DNA of 64,000 nucleotides from assembly GCA_945865565.1 (NCBI GenBank), contig CAMBEK010000002.1, positions 239,644 to 303,643 of the forward strand, in the 5' to 3' direction. This document shows, piece after piece, positions 24,906 through 32,913 of the stretch (positions are counted from its first letter, which is position 1; every line of letters begins with the position of its first letter). The position numbers and the translations under genes were made by a program. Origin of the DNA: Pseudobacteriovorax antillogorgiicola. GTDB lineage: Bacteria > Bdellovibrionota_B > Oligoflexia > Oligoflexales > RGVZ01. The notes below the pieces were generated by a model. The model saw only the letters and a list, made by a program, of their open reading frames with translations, searched no databases and was not told the DNA's origin.

Positions 24906-26198
24906 ATGACGAAAATCAAAAAACATTTTAAAAAACAGCCGGTTAAGCCGGATAAACGCACCGGAAAAGTCACCCGGCGCACCGTTGGCGGGGGTAGTGT
25001 CGATGTTCCAGCCCCCGTTTTGCGGGCTTGGCAGGAACTTTCCGGGATCAAAGACCCCGCCAAGGCAACAGTCAATGCGGCCAAATTTCGCCAACTTTGG
25101 CGCATCTTCACCAGTGGGCGTGAACGGATATCACCAGAACTTCTGCAGGATCCAGGTGCTGCGGAAGCGTATATCACGGGATTTCATCTTCCCAATGCAG
25201 CCCGGGCTGCGTTGCTGTGCCGGCGCATTGCGCAGCGCGTTGGTATCGCCCCAGGTGCAAAGCCAGGGGTCGGTTCTGGTGTGCGTCTAGGCGACTGGCT
25301 GGGTAAGTATTTCAATCATCAACGCATTTTCGATCTTGGGTGCGGTTCTGGTGCCTGGTCCCAAGTCTGGTTGTCTGAAGTACGTCTGAAGCGCAACGCC
25401 GTGCATTTGATCGATGTGAGTCCGGCATTGCTGGAAATGGCAGCGAAGGGAATCGCTTATGTTCGCGCCAGCATGGGACAGAATGCTTCGCTCTATGTCG
25501 AGACAGTGGCCAAAGAAATCGGTCAGATTGATTTTGCCCAGTTCGATGCTCAAAAAAATGCTCAGCAGTCAGGAAGCGATGCGCCAGACAAGAGTCTCGA
25601 TGTTTATATCCTCGGTTATGTGTGGAACGAATTGATTGATGATCGGACTGGAAGAGACCGTATTTTAACGCGGCTTGATTCTTGTCGCACTGCGAAACGC
25701 AATGCTCTTTTACTTCTGGCGGAACCGGCAACTGATGAATTTGCGTGGGATGCAATGGCACTACGCGATCAGTTGTGTGCGGCTGGTTGGGTTGCAATCT
25801 ATCCGTGTCCGACAGGGGCCCGGGCTTGTCCGATGCTCAATGCAGAAGGTGGAGTTCGCGACTGGTGCTTCAGCGAAGGCGGATGGCGTAAACCCGAAGA
25901 ATACATGAAGCTTGAAGAAGACACCGGTATTGCACACAACAAAATAAATTCAGCGATATTTGCCCTGGCGTCTCCTGAGTTGGCGCGCCAGCTGCCAAAA
26001 ATGTCTCCGTCTTTGATTGAACAGTCACAAGTTGTGGTTGGCAAGCCATCGGTTCCCGGTGGGCGTCCCGGCCGTGAAAAGGGATTCAGTTACCTCCTTT
26101 GCACGCCCGACGGATTGGTGAAGACAGCCCCAAAACGCATTGAGATCAAATTTGCAAAGCCAAGAGGCTCCACTGTGTCTTCGGTTGCGAAGCCATGA
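24906..26198 (+). CDS. Rsm22-like SAM methyltransferase of ribosome biogenesis
   Basis: A 430-residue protein resembling the mitochondrial/bacterial Rsm22 family. The SAM site is DLGCGSGA (143-150). C-terminal cysteines CPTGARACPM and DWCF, with a later Cys in SYLLC, match the iron-sulfur cluster ligands described for Rsm22. The N-terminus is basic. It probably acts in 30S assembly as methyltransferase or as a remodelling factor. Its stop overlaps the next start (ATGA), so it leads a four-gene operon with genes of unrelated type, which is unusual. Confidence 0.75.
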   Translation: MTKIKKHFKKQPVKPDKRTGKVTRRTVGGGSVDVPAPVLRAWQELSGIKDPAKATVNAAKFRQLWRIFTSGRERISPELLQDPGAAEAYITGFHLPNAARAALLCRRIAQRVGIAPGAKPGVGSGVRLGDWLGKYFNHQRIFDLGCGSGAWSQVWLSEVRLKRNAVHLIDVSPALLEMAAKGIAYVRASMGQNASLYVETVAKEIGQIDFAQFDAQKNAQQSGSDAPDKSLDVYILGYVWNELIDDRTGRDRILTRLDSCRTAKRNALLLLAEPATDEFAWDAMALRDQLCAAGWVAIYPCPTGARACPMLNAEGGVRDWCFSEGGWRKPEEYMKLEEDTGIAHNKINSAIFALASPELARQLPKMSPSLIEQSQVVVGKPSVPGGRPGREKGFSYLLCTPDGLVKTAPKRIEIKFAKPRGSTVSSVAKP

Positions 26199-27910
26199 TC
26201 GCCTTGATCAGGGCGTTGCCTCTCTTGGCGATGCCCTTTTCATTTTTCATTGCTTCATGCAGCGGCGGCGGTGAAGCGCCCGTGGCTCCCGCTGCTCCTG
26301 AGAATCCACAGCTACAACCTGCGATCCTCCCTGCCTATGCGACCCTTGATGTCATGGAAAGCAAAAAGCTCGCACGCCGCCTTGCCATTGAGCTCAATAA
26401 TTCTTTGAGTTTTGCCAGCATTGAATCAGCGATCGCTTCAGAAGGAATCAGTGCGGGAGTTGACGCTGCTGTTGCTTCAACAAGATTTCATGGTGCTGCA
26501 TCGGCATTTGTTGGGCGGGCATTTGGGGTCGATGCCGCCGCTTTGTATGATCTCGATGTGATGGCTGGGTCGGATCCCGGGCTGGCTGCCTCGTTAAACA
26601 ATCAAATGCGATTTGCAATTGCTGCCGAAACGGCCTTGGCGGTAGAGAGACTGATCGGTAGGCCGGCGTCAACATTTAGCGATCTTTTCACAGGAAACAC
26701 AACTGTGATGGATCCTGCCGTGGCCACACTATGGGGGTTGACGGGCTCTCCGGCTTGGCCGGGACGGTTAGAACTTTACACGTCGTATCTTGATGGTCGT
26801 CCTGGCCTCGGGATTTTGTCGTCTCAGTCTTTTCTTGCATCGTCCGCACTTCTCGGTGGTTCTTTGGATCATCCTGATTCCCGCCCTGGAACTAATATTA
26901 TCGAACGACTCCGATGCATTTCATGGGGTAATTCTGAAATTCATGACTTTAGTCTCGTTGACGGAGGTTCCGTCTCTGCTAGTGGTTTGGCTGAATTACA
27001 AGACAGCTCATCGAGCTGTGCCGCATGCCATTCCGGAATAAAATCCGCAGGAAATTCTTTGCTTGGACTTGGAAACCGCGGCGGAATCAATCCATACAAA
27101 ACCTATGATGGAACGGCTGGTGCATCTTGGCCATCAACTTGGTTTGGTCGAAGCGTATCATCATGGAGCACGCTATCGTCGGCAATTTCTGGTGATCAGG
27201 CGGTTCAAAGTTGCGTCACGCAACGAGTTTTTGAGGCGATTGCACAGCGCCCCGCAAACTACGGGCGCGATATTCCGCGAATGTCCATGATTGCGTCGAC
27301 GCTTGCCTCGACGGGATTCAAAGTTGCGGATTGGTTGGTGGCAATCTTTCAATCTCCTGCGACCACGTCTGGGCCGACTCTGAAAACCAGTAAGGTCTCA
27401 CAGCTTGAGGGACTCGTGGCAAAAGCCCGCTGGATGGAGCCGCGAAAAATGCTTGAAGCCTTGGCGGAGGCTGCACCATTGGCAGCAGCAGATATGAACA
27501 CGATTGCCTCAAACCTTGAACCAGAGGAATCTCCTGGCGCAGGAGCCACAGGTCGATCTGTTCTACCCCTTGGTTACGCGGCTCAGATAACGGAAATTGT
27601 TGAATCGGCGGTGGTTGCCATCGTGACACGTGAGCTTGCCGCAGGTGTCGGGCAAAGCCAAAGATCTGTGTTGAGCGGCGTAGCAGATCCCGCGTTTTTT
27701 TCACCGGATGAAGCAGAAGCCGAGGCGGCACGCATCTGGGAAAGTTGGATCGGAGAAGCGCCATCTGAAGCCCGAAAATCATCGCTCGGGGATATTTATG
27801 ACCTTGCAATCGGGGCGTCGGTTTCCGGGAGCGCGGCCGGTCGAACAAGGGATGGGCTCGCGGCAGTTCTTGCATCGATTCTGATCAGTCCTTATTTTTT
27901 GTCTTACTGA
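26195..27910 (+). CDS. lipoprotein with DUF1592/DUF1588-like regions and a CxxCH haem site
   Basis: A 571-residue lipoprotein (Cys22 after IAS). The segment FSDLFTGNTTVMDPAVATLWGL followed by GLGILSSQSFLAS resembles DUF1592, then RLRCISW and the haem motif CAACH (275-279) resemble DUF1588. The C-terminus (ILISPYFLSY) resembles the usual end of DUF1592/DUF1595-type proteins. These domains come from secreted proteins of Planctomycetes and Deltaproteobacteria, with unknown function. Only one haem site is seen. Domain assignment is by eye and rather remote. Four-base overlap with the upstream gene. Confidence 0.6.
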   Translation: MIALIRALPLLAMPFSFFIASCSGGGEAPVAPAAPENPQLQPAILPAYATLDVMESKKLARRLAIELNNSLSFASIESAIASEGISAGVDAAVASTRFHGAASAFVGRAFGVDAAALYDLDVMAGSDPGLAASLNNQMRFAIAAETALAVERLIGRPASTFSDLFTGNTTVMDPAVATLWGLTGSPAWPGRLELYTSYLDGRPGLGILSSQSFLASSALLGGSLDHPDSRPGTNIIERLRCISWGNSEIHDFSLVDGGSVSASGLAELQDSSSSCAACHSGIKSAGNSLLGLGNRGGINPYKTYDGTAGASWPSTWFGRSVSSWSTLSSAISGDQAVQSCVTQRVFEAIAQRPANYGRDIPRMSMIASTLASTGFKVADWLVAIFQSPATTSGPTLKTSKVSQLEGLVAKARWMEPRKMLEALAEAAPLAAADMNTIASNLEPEESPGAGATGRSVLPLGYAAQITEIVESAVVAIVTRELAAGVGQSQRSVLSGVADPAFFSPDEAEAEAARIWESWIGEAPSEARKSSLGDIYDLAIGASVSGSAAGRTRDGLAAVLASILISPYFLSY

Positions 27911-27927
27911 AGGGAAGGAAACTCGTG

Positions 27928-29196
27928 ATGGGACTAAAAAACTTCATGAGCCACCTGAAGGTGATTCCCAGTTTGGCGGTTATGACCGCATTCGTGATCG
28001 CTTTTATGGTAGGCCCCATTTTCTGTGCTGAGATTGCGTCTGGCAATTCTGGGCCTAAGGTTTTTTTGCATCTGATTTGCGATGGGGGAATCGACCCTGC
28101 AATGGTTTTTCAATGGAAGGGCGGAGGCGGCAATTCATTTGCAATTGAGCCGGGCGCGGTCCAGAGAACTTCCGTCTCTGGCCTTGTTCATGTTTCACAT
28201 CCGGCCAGGCCATCGGTCGACAGTTTTTTTGATCAATGGGGTAGTAAGTCAGCCGTATTGAACGGAGTCGGTGCTTCAGACCTTAGTGCGCGTGCCATCC
28301 ATGGGTCTGCACTCGAGGTGGAAGTGTCGGCGAAAAGAAAAATATGGCTTTCATCTTATGCCGAAGATTTTGGAAAAGGACGGCCTGCGCCAGTCGTTGC
28401 ATTTCCTGGAGTCAGATTCGACGGATCACCGGACGAAATGTCCCTGATTGGACGGATTCCCGCGAACCTTTTGACGACGACTCCGCCGGCATCCAGTTTT
28501 CCAGGATCTGTGCGCGACCGCTTATTTCGTGACCTGAGGGTTGATTACACATCCTACGAATCAATGATTCGATCTGGCAGTGGGGATGCAATTAAAATCA
28601 AAGGTTACGACAAACAATTTCGGATGCAGCAGGTTTTTGAGGCTAGCATTCCGACCGCTTTCGCCTCGGTTTACAATCCGGCACAGCCTGACTTCGTCAA
28701 CCAGGCGAAACTTGCGCTGGAAATGTTTTCGTCCGGAAAGAGTCTTGCTGCAATGGTGCGGGTTGGAGACAGGGCTACTTGGGCCGCCGCCTCCTCACAT
28801 TTTGCGATTCAGTCGGCCGCGGTCGAGACTTTGTTCGATGGTCTCGATGAGATTCTGAATCATGCCTACAATATCGGGTTGCAGACGAAACTGGTTCTAG
28901 TTGTCTCGGGGGCTTATGGCAGGACTCCTTGGTTGAACGCTGCTGGCGGCAAGGATCCGTGGCCGGTATCCAGTATGATGTTCTGGGGCAACGGGATTCG
29001 CAGCGGTGTGACCGGCGCCACCGATGATCTCGGGCGGGGCGTCAAGATTGATCCCCGCTTTGGAACCACGACCGGTGATACGATTTCACTGAGTTTTCAG
29101 AATGCGTATGCATCGATGCTGTTTCATGCCGGTGGAAACTATAAAAAGTGGACTTCGGCGTTGCCTGTCTCGGGTCTACTTCGGGGGAATCAATGA
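27928..29196 (+). CDS. DUF1501-like secreted protein
   Basis: A 422-residue exported protein with an N-terminal hydrophobic signal segment. The C-terminal third (SGAYGRTPWLNAAGGKDPW, then GATDDLGRGVKID) is typical of DUF1501, a family distantly related to sulfatases and alkaline phosphatases. The usual metal-binding residues are not obvious, so activity is uncertain. In many bacteria DUF1501 genes sit next to DUF1800 or DUF1592-type genes; the same pairing is seen here. ATG at 27928 (AAGGAA upstream) and GTG at 27925 are both possible. Confidence 0.7.
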   Translation: MGLKNFMSHLKVIPSLAVMTAFVIAFMVGPIFCAEIASGNSGPKVFLHLICDGGIDPAMVFQWKGGGGNSFAIEPGAVQRTSVSGLVHVSHPARPSVDSFFDQWGSKSAVLNGVGASDLSARAIHGSALEVEVSAKRKIWLSSYAEDFGKGRPAPVVAFPGVRFDGSPDEMSLIGRIPANLLTTTPPASSFPGSVRDRLFRDLRVDYTSYESMIRSGSGDAIKIKGYDKQFRMQQVFEASIPTAFASVYNPAQPDFVNQAKLALEMFSSGKSLAAMVRVGDRATWAAASSHFAIQSAAVETLFDGLDEILNHAYNIGLQTKLVLVVSGAYGRTPWLNAAGGKDPWPVSSMMFWGNGIRSGVTGATDDLGRGVKIDPRFGTTTGDTISLSFQNAYASMLFHAGGNYKKWTSALPVSGLLRGNQ

Positions 29197-29639
29197 TTCC
29201 GAGGAAAAAAAATCCACTCAGACTACTTGCAGGGTTTATGACAGCAGGATTAGCCGCCGGCTGCTTTAATTTTATTGCATCTTGTGGGGGTGCAAGCGCA
29301 TCAGATCCCGACGAACCAAGCGCATTGAACCCGAATACACCACTGCCTGTGCCGACGTCGTTGAATTGTCCTGCAGGAACGAATCTTTCGTACGAAAACT
29401 TCGGTGTCCAGTTCCTGCGTCGTTATTGCAGTGGGTGTCATTCACTAAATCTTACTGGGGTGGATCGTCATGGAGCGCCGGAATCAGTTAACTTTGATTC
29501 AGCAGCCGATGCCATTACCCTGCGTATCGAAATGCTACGGTATGCGGGATCAGATGATGCGAGCATGCCTCCTGGAGTCAGCATTCTGAAAGACGAACGG
29601 GCACTTTTCCGTGAGTGGCTCAACTGCGGCGCGCCGTGA
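29193..29639 (+). CDS. small cytochrome c-type lipoprotein
   Basis: A 148-residue exported protein with one haem motif CSGCH (79-83) and a later methionine (ASMPPGV, near residue 121) that could be the sixth ligand. A lipobox LAAGC (Cys24) or IASC (Cys31) follows a basic N-terminus. It is the last gene of the operon, overlapping the DUF1501-like gene by four bases (ATGA). The three secreted products, two of them with haem sites, are likely to work together at the cell envelope; their substrate is unknown. Confidence 0.75.
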   Translation: MIPRKKNPLRLLAGFMTAGLAAGCFNFIASCGGASASDPDEPSALNPNTPLPVPTSLNCPAGTNLSYENFGVQFLRRYCSGCHSLNLTGVDRHGAPESVNFDSAADAITLRIEMLRYAGSDDASMPPGVSILKDERALFREWLNCGAP

Positions 29640-29718: not shown

Positions 29719-29768
29719 CGTCATCCTGAGCCGCAGGCGAAGGATCCTTCGCTGCGCTCAGGATGACG
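29719..29768. repeat. long inverted repeat (dispersed repeat family)
   Basis: A nearly perfect 50-base hairpin. The arms CGTCATCCTGAGC (29719-29731) and GCTCAGGATGACG (29756-29768) flank a 16-base palindrome GCGAAGGATCCTTCGC (29737-29752), with only two unpaired bases. It lies between two converging genes and could terminate transcription from either side. Similar sequences are known as scattered intergenic repeats in many bacteria. Confidence 0.8.
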
Positions 29769-29777
29769 GAGAATGGC

Positions 29778-30734
29778 TCAGGATCTTGAAGAAAAATTCG
29801 CAGCCTTCAGGAATTCCAGAAAGTTGATCGGCAGGGGAGCCTCTAGCGTCACCGGCTTTTCGTTGTCGGCCGGGATAAATGTGAGGTGGAAGGCGTGCAG
29901 AAAATGGTGCACAGCTGCAAGTGATTCCAAGGCCGGCGTCATGGGCATTTTACCAGGCTGATACTTTTTGTCCCCAATGATTGGGAATCCCTTGCTTGCC
30001 AGGTGGACTCGTATCTGGTGACTGCGTCCAGTCTCTGGACGGCAGCGGATCAAGGACATGCCCAGTGCCTTGTTGGATTCGATGACTTCAAAGAAAGTTT
30101 TTGAGGGCTTGCCCCCCGAACGTACCACGGTGACGTTGCCAGTTCTTTTGTCGATGGGGGAAAGAAAGCATTCTACCGTGAATTTTTTCTCGTGCGGTAT
30201 TCCGGAACACAAGGCCAGATACTCTTTGCCCACCGTGCGGCAGCGGAATTGGTCCGTCAGAAATGTGACGGACTCCGCGGTTGTGGCGAGCAGCACAACG
30301 CCGCTGGTTTCCTTGTCCAGTCTGTGAACCAAAAACACCTTTGCATTTGGGTGGCCCTTGCTTGCCAAATATTTTTTAACCGCGGCTTCGAGGTGCACGA
30401 CAGACTGGTCACGCGTGGCTTGAGTTGGCAGGCCTGGTGGCTTGTTAATTGCGATGACGTGATGATGATCAAACAGGAGGTCTGATGGTTGGATTTCGTA
30501 TTCTCGTTGTTTGATTCGCTTCAAATTTTCCAGGCTGTATTGCATCTCGATGGTGTCGCCAGGGTTTACCGGTCGGGATGCAATCCTGGCCCGTTTTCGA
30601 TTGATGTAAACGCCACCGGCATCAATCACTTCCCTGATTTTGCGCTTGGATAATTCAACGCCCTGAAGGGCAATGAACTGGTCAAGACGCATACCTGCGA
30701 AATCAGCTTTTACCTTAAAATTATGGATCTTCAT
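29778..30734 (-). CDS. RluA family pseudouridine synthase
   Basis: A 318-residue RNA-modifying enzyme. An N-terminal S4 domain (LDQFIALQGVELSKRKIREV) is followed by the catalytic domain with HRLDKETSG, in which Asp140 is the nucleophile. It probably modifies 23S rRNA like RluC or RluD; the exact position cannot be told. ATG 30734 is chosen; an upstream TTG at 30755 would overlap the asparaginase gene. The two genes are probably co-transcribed. Confidence 0.85.
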   Translation of the reverse strand: MKIHNFKVKADFAGMRLDQFIALQGVELSKRKIREVIDAGGVYINRKRARIASRPVNPGDTIEMQYSLENLKRIKQREYEIQPSDLLFDHHHVIAINKPPGLPTQATRDQSVVHLEAAVKKYLASKGHPNAKVFLVHRLDKETSGVVLLATTAESVTFLTDQFRCRTVGKEYLALCSGIPHEKKFTVECFLSPIDKRTGNVTVVRSGGKPSKTFFEVIESNKALGMSLIRCRPETGRSHQIRVHLASKGFPIIGDKKYQPGKMPMTPALESLAAVHHFLHAFHLTFIPADNEKPVTLEAPLPINFLEFLKAANFSSRS

Positions 30735-30747
30735 GGTTATCGGGCTC

Positions 30748-31728
30748 TCATGCAAAAGGTGGAAGCATGAGAGACTGATCGCGAGGCACCCACTCTTCCT
30801 GGCATGATTTCAAATAATCACAGAGGTCTTGCAGGGTCTTGGTCAAGGAACCACTGCGGGCTTTTTGCTGTAGCAGACTCAATAAAGCCAAACCAAGATG
30901 AGCGGGGTTGTATCCAGCTGAAACCTTTACGAAGCAGGTGGCAGAAACCTCGCCGGATGATCCATCCGGGATCGTGTGAATTGCCAAAAGGCCATCGGCA
31001 CCCTCTTTTGCCAAGATGCGCCCCGGGAGCGCCTCCATCAGGTCCGAATCGAGGCGCTTGATTCCACCAATCAGGCGGGGATTTGCCAACCAAAGGGATT
31101 TGAGGTCCGCAACGCGGGGATCATTGGATCGTGCCAGTTTTTCCCAAAGGCCAAGATAACCGTCCACCGACATTGCTGCGACAGGCAGGCCACAGCTGTC
31201 GGTAAACCATTCCAGTCTCTCTCCGGCCTCGCGGCCGACAAGATTATAGACCTTCTTCTGTAATGGATGGTCAGGACTGAAGTATGTTTTGAGAGGAAAA
31301 TCGTGGTGCCGACATGCGGCGAGCATCATAAGATGTTTACCCGAACAAGGATGCAGCAACCGGGTCTGGGATTCTCCGCGCATTCTCATTGCAACGGAAG
31401 CCATTGGATCCAAGGGCCAAGACCTTGGACAAATTAGATCGGCCTCTCCGGCGCCTGATCTTTCAGACAGGATCTTGAGCGCATCGATATGCGCCGGTTC
31501 AGCAGAATGGCTGGCAAACCCCATCGCCCAGTAGGCATCCCGTGATCCAACATCAGCGGCGAGAAATTGCCAGGGCTTGAGGAGTGACCTGGTAACAAAT
31601 GGCATGCTCGTTGCCGCATTGGAGAATGTAGCGCCGCCCGATTCGCGCAAGGCGACCATGCCTTGCACGGAGACTTCCGGGACGCCGCTGCGAGCGAACA
31701 TGAACAATGTTGGAAGTCGGTGCAGCAT
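30748..31728 (-). CDS. asparaginase, thermolabile (Rhizobium type II) family
   Basis: A 326-residue protein of the family named after the Rhizobium asparaginase II. Characteristic pieces are SLLKPWQFL, GFASHSAEPAHI, HPCSGKHLMML, DHPLQKKV and DSCGLPVAAM. It hydrolyses L-asparagine to aspartate and ammonia in relatives. The conserved serine, lysine and cysteine positions of this family appear to be retained. No signal peptide is obvious. Adjacent minus-strand genes are close (13-27 bases), so a small operon with the flavin monooxygenase is likely. Confidence 0.75.
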   Translation of the reverse strand: MLHRLPTLFMFARSGVPEVSVQGMVALRESGGATFSNAATSMPFVTRSLLKPWQFLAADVGSRDAYWAMGFASHSAEPAHIDALKILSERSGAGEADLICPRSWPLDPMASVAMRMRGESQTRLLHPCSGKHLMMLAACRHHDFPLKTYFSPDHPLQKKVYNLVGREAGERLEWFTDSCGLPVAAMSVDGYLGLWEKLARSNDPRVADLKSLWLANPRLIGGIKRLDSDLMEALPGRILAKEGADGLLAIHTIPDGSSGEVSATCFVKVSAGYNPAHLGLALLSLLQQKARSGSLTKTLQDLCDYLKSCQEEWVPRDQSLMLPPFA

Positions 31729-31755
31729 GGATTATGCGTTCCCCTTTTGGGCGGG

Positions 31756-32913
31756 TTACTGGTTGTTGCCGGAAAAATGAGGAGCGACTTTTTCGCCGAA
31801 AATTCGCATTTGCTGACAAACCGCATCGGAGTCCGATTGATTGAATTCAAACCACAGCATGAGCCGGTCATCCTGATGGAGGCGACGCGGATTTTCTGGA
31901 GAAAGCTGTTCTCTGATTTCTTGCGGGTCACCAATGAGCGCACGTGACATAAGGATAGCTTTGTCAGGAACGGCAGCGGTTCCGCGCATGGCCTCGATGT
32001 AGATATCAAAACATTTTTCTGCGCGTTCATGGGCACGCTGACTGGATTCGTCAATAAAAGTGAGCACCGTTCGTGGCATGCGGCTGCGGTGCCAGCTTCG
32101 GTTTGTGTTTTCATAGCGGCGGCGCATAGCTTCATGCACTGCATCGATCTGGTCCGGTGCCGTGAAACTCAAATTGAAAATATCGCAATCCGCCCATTGA
32201 AGGGCTGCGTCTTGAGCCAGGGGATCGTGGGAGCCAAGGACAAAGGTTGTTCGAAGCAAGTCTTCGTCAGATAGTTTTGGGACCAGCATCATTTCGTCAA
32301 ACTGCCATCTTGGTTCATAAGGTGTGCCGGCTTCATCTACCGTGCGTCTGGTGACATCCATCGAACTGATGGCTTGTCCCTGGAAGAGGCGTAAGAATAT
32401 CTCAGATGCCTCACACAGGATCAGCCGGGAATATGTTTGCCAGTTCTTCGCCTCAAAATCGTTGCGAGGAGCAATTCCAAAAGGTCTGTTGATGAATGGG
32501 AAACGACCCGACGCAATGCCTATGTTTAGGTTGCGTGGCTGGTCGGCGAATTGGTTTAGAAATGCCAGCGACCGGATCCGGTCCGCAGCGGCAATGGGCC
32601 CGCCATTTCCGCCAACAATGTTGTAGATGGCAGTTCCGAAGCCGATGCGTTTGGTTTTCGATATGATGACCTGGGCAAGTTGAGCCGAGTCACAGTTAAG
32701 CCCAACTTCGCCCTGATAATTGGGGATCACCGGCTGCTTGTGGCGTTTTTGGACTTCACATGAGAAGTGGGATTCGGCGGCCCAGATGGTTCCATAGCCC
32801 AGGGCATCGGCCAAACTCAGCTGTTCAAAAAAGCCTTCAAAGACCTCGCGGTCTGACAGCTGTTTGGGGAGCGTGTCGATGCGCCCGATGGAATGAAAAA
32901 TATCAAATTTCAT
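31756..32913 (-). CDS. LLM class flavin-dependent oxidoreductase (luciferase-like)
   Basis: A 385-residue luciferase-like monooxygenase. The N-terminal part LADALGYGTIWAAESHF and the inner NIGIASGRFPF segment fit the family, which uses FMNH2 supplied by a separate reductase. The substrate is unknown. It is the first gene of the minus-strand group 32913-29778, diverging from the response regulator at 33005. A flavin reductase is not adjacent. Confidence 0.8.
   Translation of the reverse strand: MKFDIFHSIGRIDTLPKQLSDREVFEGFFEQLSLADALGYGTIWAAESHFSCEVQKRHKQPVIPNYQGEVGLNCDSAQLAQVIISKTKRIGFGTAIYNIVGGNGGPIAAADRIRSLAFLNQFADQPRNLNIGIASGRFPFINRPFGIAPRNDFEAKNWQTYSRLILCEASEIFLRLFQGQAISSMDVTRRTVDEAGTPYEPRWQFDEMMLVPKLSDEDLLRTTFVLGSHDPLAQDAALQWADCDIFNLSFTAPDQIDAVHEAMRRRYENTNRSWHRSRMPRTVLTFIDESSQRAHERAEKCFDIYIEAMRGTAAVPDKAILMSRALIGDPQEIREQLSPENPRRLHQDDRLMLWFEFNQSDSDAVCQQMRIFGEKVAPHFSGNNQ

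Follow-up and report, generated by a model that had tools for sequence, protein, structure and literature searches.

A stretch of 64,000 nucleotides from Pseudobacteriovorax antillogorgiicola (contig CAMBEK010000002.1 of assembly GCA_945865565.1; hereafter the window) contains three tandem open frames on the plus strand, termed A, B and C. The middle gene encodes a DUF1501-type protein which lacks the His/Asp residues and the twin arginine conserved in its relatives, and it lies between genes for two mono-haem proteins. This loss of conserved residues is the new point of the present analysis and was overlooked by an earlier note on the same DNA. The three genes may constitute a two-cytochrome envelope module whose DUF1501 subunit has turned into a non-catalytic partner, a reading which presumes complex formation, a metal site in the relatives and electron transfer, and to which we assign a probability of about one half. 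The three genes and their upstream neighbor are as follows (lengths in amino acids, aa).

24906–26198, plus strand: Rsm22-like methyltransferase-fold gene (PF09243, 26.9 bits), neighbor of the trio, with an ATGA overlap with A
26195–27910, plus strand: gene A, 571 aa, PSD/PSCyt-type mono-haem protein and probable lipoprotein (PSD matches under cut-off; hhalign)
27928–29196, plus strand: gene B, 422 aa, DUF1501-type protein without twin-arginine motif (PF07394; hhalign)
29193–29639, plus strand: gene C, 148 aa, mono-haem cytochrome c-like lipoprotein (PF13442 in relatives; hhalign)

Window B scores 25.7 bits (hmmscan) or 27.3 bits (six-frame search) against PF07394, for which the curated cut-off is 27, and the family is matched at E<=0.1 by 11 of the 12 B proteins of the trio, the best at 5.3e-14. 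The N-terminus of window B is hydrophobic, and the protein contains no CxxCH. Thirteen other DUF1501 proteins share five invariant residues, namely the GGxD Asp, the TSH His, the FDTH Asp and His, and the GRDHW His; the GRDHW Asp is almost invariant. Alignment with relatives places the following window residues at conserved positions.

28288–28290, plus strand: Ala121 of B, at the position of the TSH His (H1)
28783–28791, plus strand: Ala286 and Ala288 of B, at the positions of the FDTH Asp and His (D2, H2)
28912–28914, plus strand: Ala329 of B, at the position of the S(D/E)FGR Asp/Glu (D3)
28957–28959, plus strand: Pro344 of B, at the position of the GRDHW His (H4)

Read in the order H1, D2, H2, D3, D4 and H4, window B has Ala, Ala, Ala, Ala, Asp and Pro, and the His/Asp set of TSH, FDTH, S(D/E)FGR and GRDHW, which is defined by the relatives and not by a curated criterion, is not present as such. 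H1 is kept in 3/12 trio B proteins as opposed to 31/35 sampled other DUF1501 proteins (the remaining four have Asp), H2 likewise in 3/12 as opposed to 31/35, and the last His, H4, in 3/12 as opposed to 34/35. For the acidic positions, the corresponding figures are 5/12 and 35/35 (D2, the Asp of FDTH), 7/12 and 33/35 (D3, as Asp or Glu) and 6/12 and 29/35 (D4). The comparison sample was drawn from the fetched loci and comprises proteins of at least 380 aa (48 matches, from which one shorter protein was dropped and the 12 trio members were set apart) with duplicates removed by their last 100 aa; it is a sample and not all DUF1501 proteins of the group, and several of its members score only 14–32 bits, so that their alignment is uncertain. 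The three His occur together in the trio B proteins of L037, L038 and L039 and are missing together from the remaining nine, among them the four from the window's genus. On a tree of B proteins with a weak backbone, which took in five of the eight DUF1501 proteins of the two-haem modules described below, this pattern needs at least three changes.

The twin-arginine signal, again a feature of the relatives and not a curated criterion, is found in 3/12 trio B proteins as opposed to all 35 sampled others (3/12 and 30/35 for a stricter motif), and is absent from window B and its three genus relatives. That the genus has lost the twin-arginine (Tat) route as a whole was ruled out, as TatC is found in 42/43 genomes of the order, including all four of the genus. 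In the window's genus, the open frame containing TatC spans 518–553 aa (G000:C13:40669-41307 and relatives), compared to 247–291 aa in other genomes of the order, and the long frame is possibly a fusion or a long extension.

The three-gene arrangement can be compared with eight related modules (L043–L050), in which a gene for a PSD-like protein with two CxxCH motifs is followed by a DUF1501 gene. Compared as profiles by hhalign, A is homologous to the two-haem protein across its haem and PSD2 region (324 columns, E 6e-12) and B to the accompanying DUF1501 protein (4e-22). Within the two-haem relatives, the first haem domain is the counterpart of the haem region of A (9.9e-8) and the second, C-terminal one that of C (2e-7), as opposed to only about 1e-3 for the crossed pairs; segment borders were set by hand in this comparison, and hhalign E-values apply to single comparisons. 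C thus looks like the second haem domain encoded as a gene of its own, though both are of the broad cytochrome c type. The earlier note had remarked on one haem per protein, and this holds: A and C carry one CxxCH each, because the second haem domain of the two-haem relatives corresponds to the separate gene C. Among three proteins of L043–L050 that were scanned, one exceeds a PSD cut-off (L045, PSD2, 27.2 bits). In L070, the PF13442 domain lies towards the N-terminus instead.

The assignment of A draws on matches which all lie under the curated cut-offs, namely PSD4/DUF1592 (15.0 bits, residues 83–182), PSD2 (14.9 bits, residues 318–389) and PSD5 (15.5 bits, residues 545–569; hmmscan). Among 10 trio A proteins, PSD2 and PSD5 are each matched at E<=0.1 in six and PF07627 (PSCyt3) in two (best 0.011). 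Ten of the 12 A proteins make up the alignment A3, from which L037 (unsure start) and L041 (cut by a contig end) were omitted.

26258–26260, plus strand: probable lipobox Cys22 of A (lipobox by eye), fully conserved in the 10 proteins of A3
27017–27031, plus strand: CxxCH haem motif of A, residues 275–279, all three motif residues (two Cys, one His) unchanged across the 10 proteins of A3
27827–27901, plus strand: PSD5-like C-terminal end of A, with sub-threshold PF07637 matches in 6/10 A proteins

Presumably, the C-terminus is not the usual place of PSD5. A circular permutation of A was considered and set aside; four of six trio A proteins scanned singly have a PSD5 match, which is C-terminal in all four. 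Residues 400–571, the last ~170 of A, lack a convincing counterpart among the two-haem relatives, the best hhalign relation (1.1e-3) being to their PSD2 region, and since this relation is weak at best, neither a permutation nor a duplication of the end of A is claimed. The three family checks named in the earlier note gave divided results, as the PF07394 scores of window B lie about its cut-off, window A matches PF07631 under the cut-off (E 0.036; hmmscan) and the hmmscan of window A gives no match to PF07627. Its labels proved right, but weak, for a DUF1501-type B, a PSD-type A (DUF1592 and kin), a cytochrome lipoprotein C and an Rsm22-like leader. The further statement that the proteins are shorter than usual applies only slightly: trio A proteins measure 558–579 aa (one of 728 aa has an unsure start) as opposed to 558–656 aa in the eight two-haem relatives, and trio B proteins 412–449 aa as opposed to 439–475 aa.

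Window C has no Pfam match up to E 10 (hmmscan) and is assigned as cytochrome c-like through its relatives: of the 12 trio C proteins, nine have a PF13442 match at E<=0.1 (best 7.3e-05). A PDB search with the C profile has cytochrome c-552 as its best match (0.0065).

29283–29285, plus strand: probable lipobox Cys31 of C (lipobox by eye), invariant in 12/12 C proteins
29427–29441, plus strand: CxxCH haem motif of C, residues 79–83, invariant in 12/12 C proteins
29565–29573, plus strand: MPP motif of C, invariant in 12/12 C proteins

The combination of CxxCH and a Met motif expected of a mono-haem cytochrome c is present in all 12 C proteins, and Met125 of the MPP motif is likely the distal haem ligand. 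In C, as in A, the N-terminus is hydrophobic and a Cys lies in what looks by eye like a lipobox. Haem attachment is plausible because the window genome contains three Cytochrom_C_asm matches.

The three genes are closely packed. The stop of the Rsm22-like gene and the start of A share an ATGA (26195–26198), 17 bases separate A from B, and a second ATGA is common to the stop of B and the start of C (29193–29196); the start of B is the ATG at 27928, with a GTG present at 27925. This bears out the description in the earlier note of three secreted products, two of them with CxxCH, in overlapping or tight order, and the arrangement goes beyond chance, as the order A-B-C is identical in all 12 genomes with the trio. 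These genomes were delimited by profile searches. Full-length trio B proteins score 480–570 bits in 12/43 genomes of the order (next best about 80 bits), A 237–755 bits in 12/58 genomes of the phylum-level group (the lowest being a piece; next 82) and C 161–205 bits in 12/58 (next 40), and the trio-level matches of all three fall in the same 12 genomes, all of the window's order. In one of these, G010, A is divided between two contigs. The search with the B profile covered the 43 genomes of the order, and that with B as a single protein covered 56; beyond the 58 genomes, the search for the trio consisted of one single-protein scan of genome contigs, which recovered three loci of the same genus, two from Oligoflexales metagenome-assembled genomes and the third named Pseudobacteriovorax antillogorgiicola. 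The four genomes of the window's genus (89–90% complete) contain trio B as their only DUF1501 match and no PSCyt3 match at E<=0.001, compared to up to 18 in other members of the order. A literature search returned no paper whose title concerns this trio or a DUF1501 protein without the site.

All frames are intact in the four genomes of the genus. Between the window and L033, the ratio of nonsynonymous to synonymous substitution rates (dN/dS) is 0.117 for A, 0.139 for B and 0.238 for C, as opposed to 0.057 for the neighboring Rsm22 and 0.052 for RluA, and over all computable pairs it ranges from 0.09 to 0.24 for the three genes. The trio is therefore faster-evolving than Rsm22 and RluA, yet constrained, and is under purifying selection.

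In the proposed mechanism, A, B and C would act as one envelope module. A and C would be lipid-anchored and carry one c-type haem each, as a split form of the two-haem PSD protein, and electrons may pass between the two haems, while B would be a secreted DUF1501 protein docking on A. In most DUF1501 proteins, the His/Asp cluster would probably form a metal site in a sulfatase/phosphatase-like fold, with export in the folded state through Tat. B of this lineage lacks both the cluster and the Tat motif; without the latter, its export probably runs through Sec in the unfolded state, and its role may be that of a non-catalytic partner in binding or assembling the two cytochromes. That B is in this sense a pseudo-DUF1501, which would have lost a presumed metal site and the Tat route and been kept as a docking partner of two split cytochromes, is a tentative proposal whose odds fall somewhat short of even.

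Several observations weigh against this reading. The loss of the site and that of the twin arginine are uncoupled within the trio, where L038 and L039 have the site without the twin arginine and L036 and L040 the twin arginine without the three His. Since 3/12 trio B proteins keep the site, its loss is not a trio-wide property, and sampled other DUF1501 proteins vary at single positions, too (H2 is not His in 4/35, H1 is Asp in 4/35). The metal site is suggested by the joint conservation and joint loss of the residues, by the clan of the family, which we take to have an alkaline phosphatase/sulfatase-like fold, and by a match of the SDFG segment of the other-DUF1501 profile to a sulfatase which is non-significant (E 0.28). 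AlphaFold models of B and A from four-sequence alignments reached mean predicted local distance difference test scores of 30.0 and 31.8 and were left unused, and for more distant pairs dS exceeds 1 or is not computable. A PDB sequence search with window B gave no match, PDB searches with the profiles of other DUF1501 proteins, of A and of C returned matches that were weak or generic, and NCBIfam gave nothing above cut-off.

B could still be an enzyme, either by using other residues or because the cluster of His and Asp that it lost had a structural or regulatory role and not a catalytic one. Window B does retain GGxD, the GKD Asp, and the Arg and Thr-Pro of GRTP, the protein is under purifying selection, and one source describes DUF1501 as lacking characterization, so that a catalytic role of the family is not established (PMC4452313). 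The joint loss of the three His in 9/12 trio B proteins, set against a last His kept in 34/35 relatives, resembles the loss of one site, and continued enzyme activity is considered unlikely. Still less probable is that the trio represents a decaying relic of the two-haem module which survived by chance in compact genomes. Its distribution is patchy, with 12/43 order genomes and no trio-level match in the family's other genus, represented by six genomes, and it holds the sole DUF1501 match of a window genome that is ~90% complete; intact frames throughout the genus, the low dN/dS of all three genes where computable and the invariant haem motifs all speak against decay.

A functional partnership with Rsm22, which would couple ribosome assembly to the redox state of the envelope, appears very improbable. 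In the window, the two are joined by the ATGA overlap, and in 9/12 trio genomes the closest gene of recognizable type upstream of A is Rsm22, at a distance of ~970 bases with short open reading frames in two of them (L034, L035) and at a contig end in G010. However, Rsm22 stands elsewhere in the other three trio genomes and is matched (E<=0.001, a few matches being weak) in 35/43 order genomes, 23 of which have no trio, and its adjacency to LipA is kept in all 12 trio-less loci that were fetched out of the 23 possible (with an extra open reading frame in between in L129). The notion of an operon led by Rsm22 in a functional sense is thus not upheld, and the comparison of neighborhoods suggested earlier gave a kept trio order in 12 genomes together with Rsm22 in trio-less loci as well. 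Given Rsm22 in genomes without the trio and the persistent LipA-Rsm22 adjacency, the site is an ancient and common one, and Rsm22 is probably just a neighbor whose functional link to the trio is unlikely.

If the reading of B as a non-catalytic partner is true, a structural, cytochrome-binding role of DUF1501 would be separable from its presumed catalysis, which would explain why DUF1501 genes adjoin those for haem-bearing PSD proteins. The trio then offers a natural set in which DUF1501 residues are lost and the module is kept, separating a binding from a catalytic role and naming the residues concerned.

The trio is bounded by the Rsm22-like gene (24906–26198) and a convergent pseudouridine synthase gene, RluA (29778–30755; PF00849), and an RluA-matching gene directly and convergently follows Rsm22 in five trio-less loci (L122, L123, L128, L129, and L131), which look like the empty site. 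The loci compared were a chosen 16, from 12 of the 23 trio-less genomes and four trio genomes; for the LipA, lipid A acyltransferase, asparaginase and luciferase-like genes, labels were verified in the window alone and transferred to the other loci by phmmer. The Rsm22-like protein itself belongs to PF09243 (26.9 bits, over the cut-off of 23; hmmscan) and retains a cysteine-rich stretch, CPTGARACP...DWC, which we take to resemble the iron-sulfur motif of METTL17/Rsm22. In many loci, its gene stands divergently beside that of lipoyl synthase. A block of luciferase-like, asparaginase II and RluA genes (29778–32913; also in L034, L035, and L036) stays near the trio, opposite to it in the window's genus and along with it in L034 and L035. 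A strong, terminator-like hairpin of 11 pairs (26210–26237, z -6.48), followed by T-rich sequence, lies within the start of A; an attenuator was considered and rejected, as chosen stretches of three genus relatives have no counterpart (z -0.35 to -0.83). A dispersed 27-base repeat, AAGGATCCTTCGCTGCGCTCAGGATGA, at 29740–29766 has 34 copies in the genome at up to two mismatches, some in short tandem clusters, with no occurrence of the reversed-pattern control.

Among known systems, DUF1501-DUF1800 systems such as those of chitin synthase loci likewise combine a DUF1501 protein with a partner of unknown function; the DUF1501 proteins beside bacterial chitin synthases are reported to carry a twin-arginine motif (PMC5122149), unlike window B. 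The 10 flanking genes scanned in the window have no DUF1800 or chitin synthase match at E<=1e-5. The PSCyt1-3/PSD1-5 gene pairs of Planctomycetes resemble A in the PSD2-, PSD4- and PSD5-like stretches and the haem motif, and differ in that A stays below every Pfam cut-off, that the second haem domain is in a separate gene and that the PSD5-like end is C-terminal. PSCyt2 and PSCyt3 genes are reported mostly to adjoin genes of two unknown families, and their functions are given as unknown (PMC5615132). The pairs of L043–L050 come from relatives of the same taxonomic class and resemble the trio in sharing homologous A and B, both haem domains and the A-then-B order. They differ in carrying both haems in one protein, in their flanking genes, and in a DUF1501 protein with the full His/Asp set and twin arginine, unlike window B. 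Most of these loci form a recurring module that comprises a protein of ~360–390 aa, one of ~210–280 aa, the two-haem PSD-like protein, the Tat-type DUF1501 protein and a further protein of ~360–400 aa. The comparison matches the two-haem protein and the three-gene form domain by domain.

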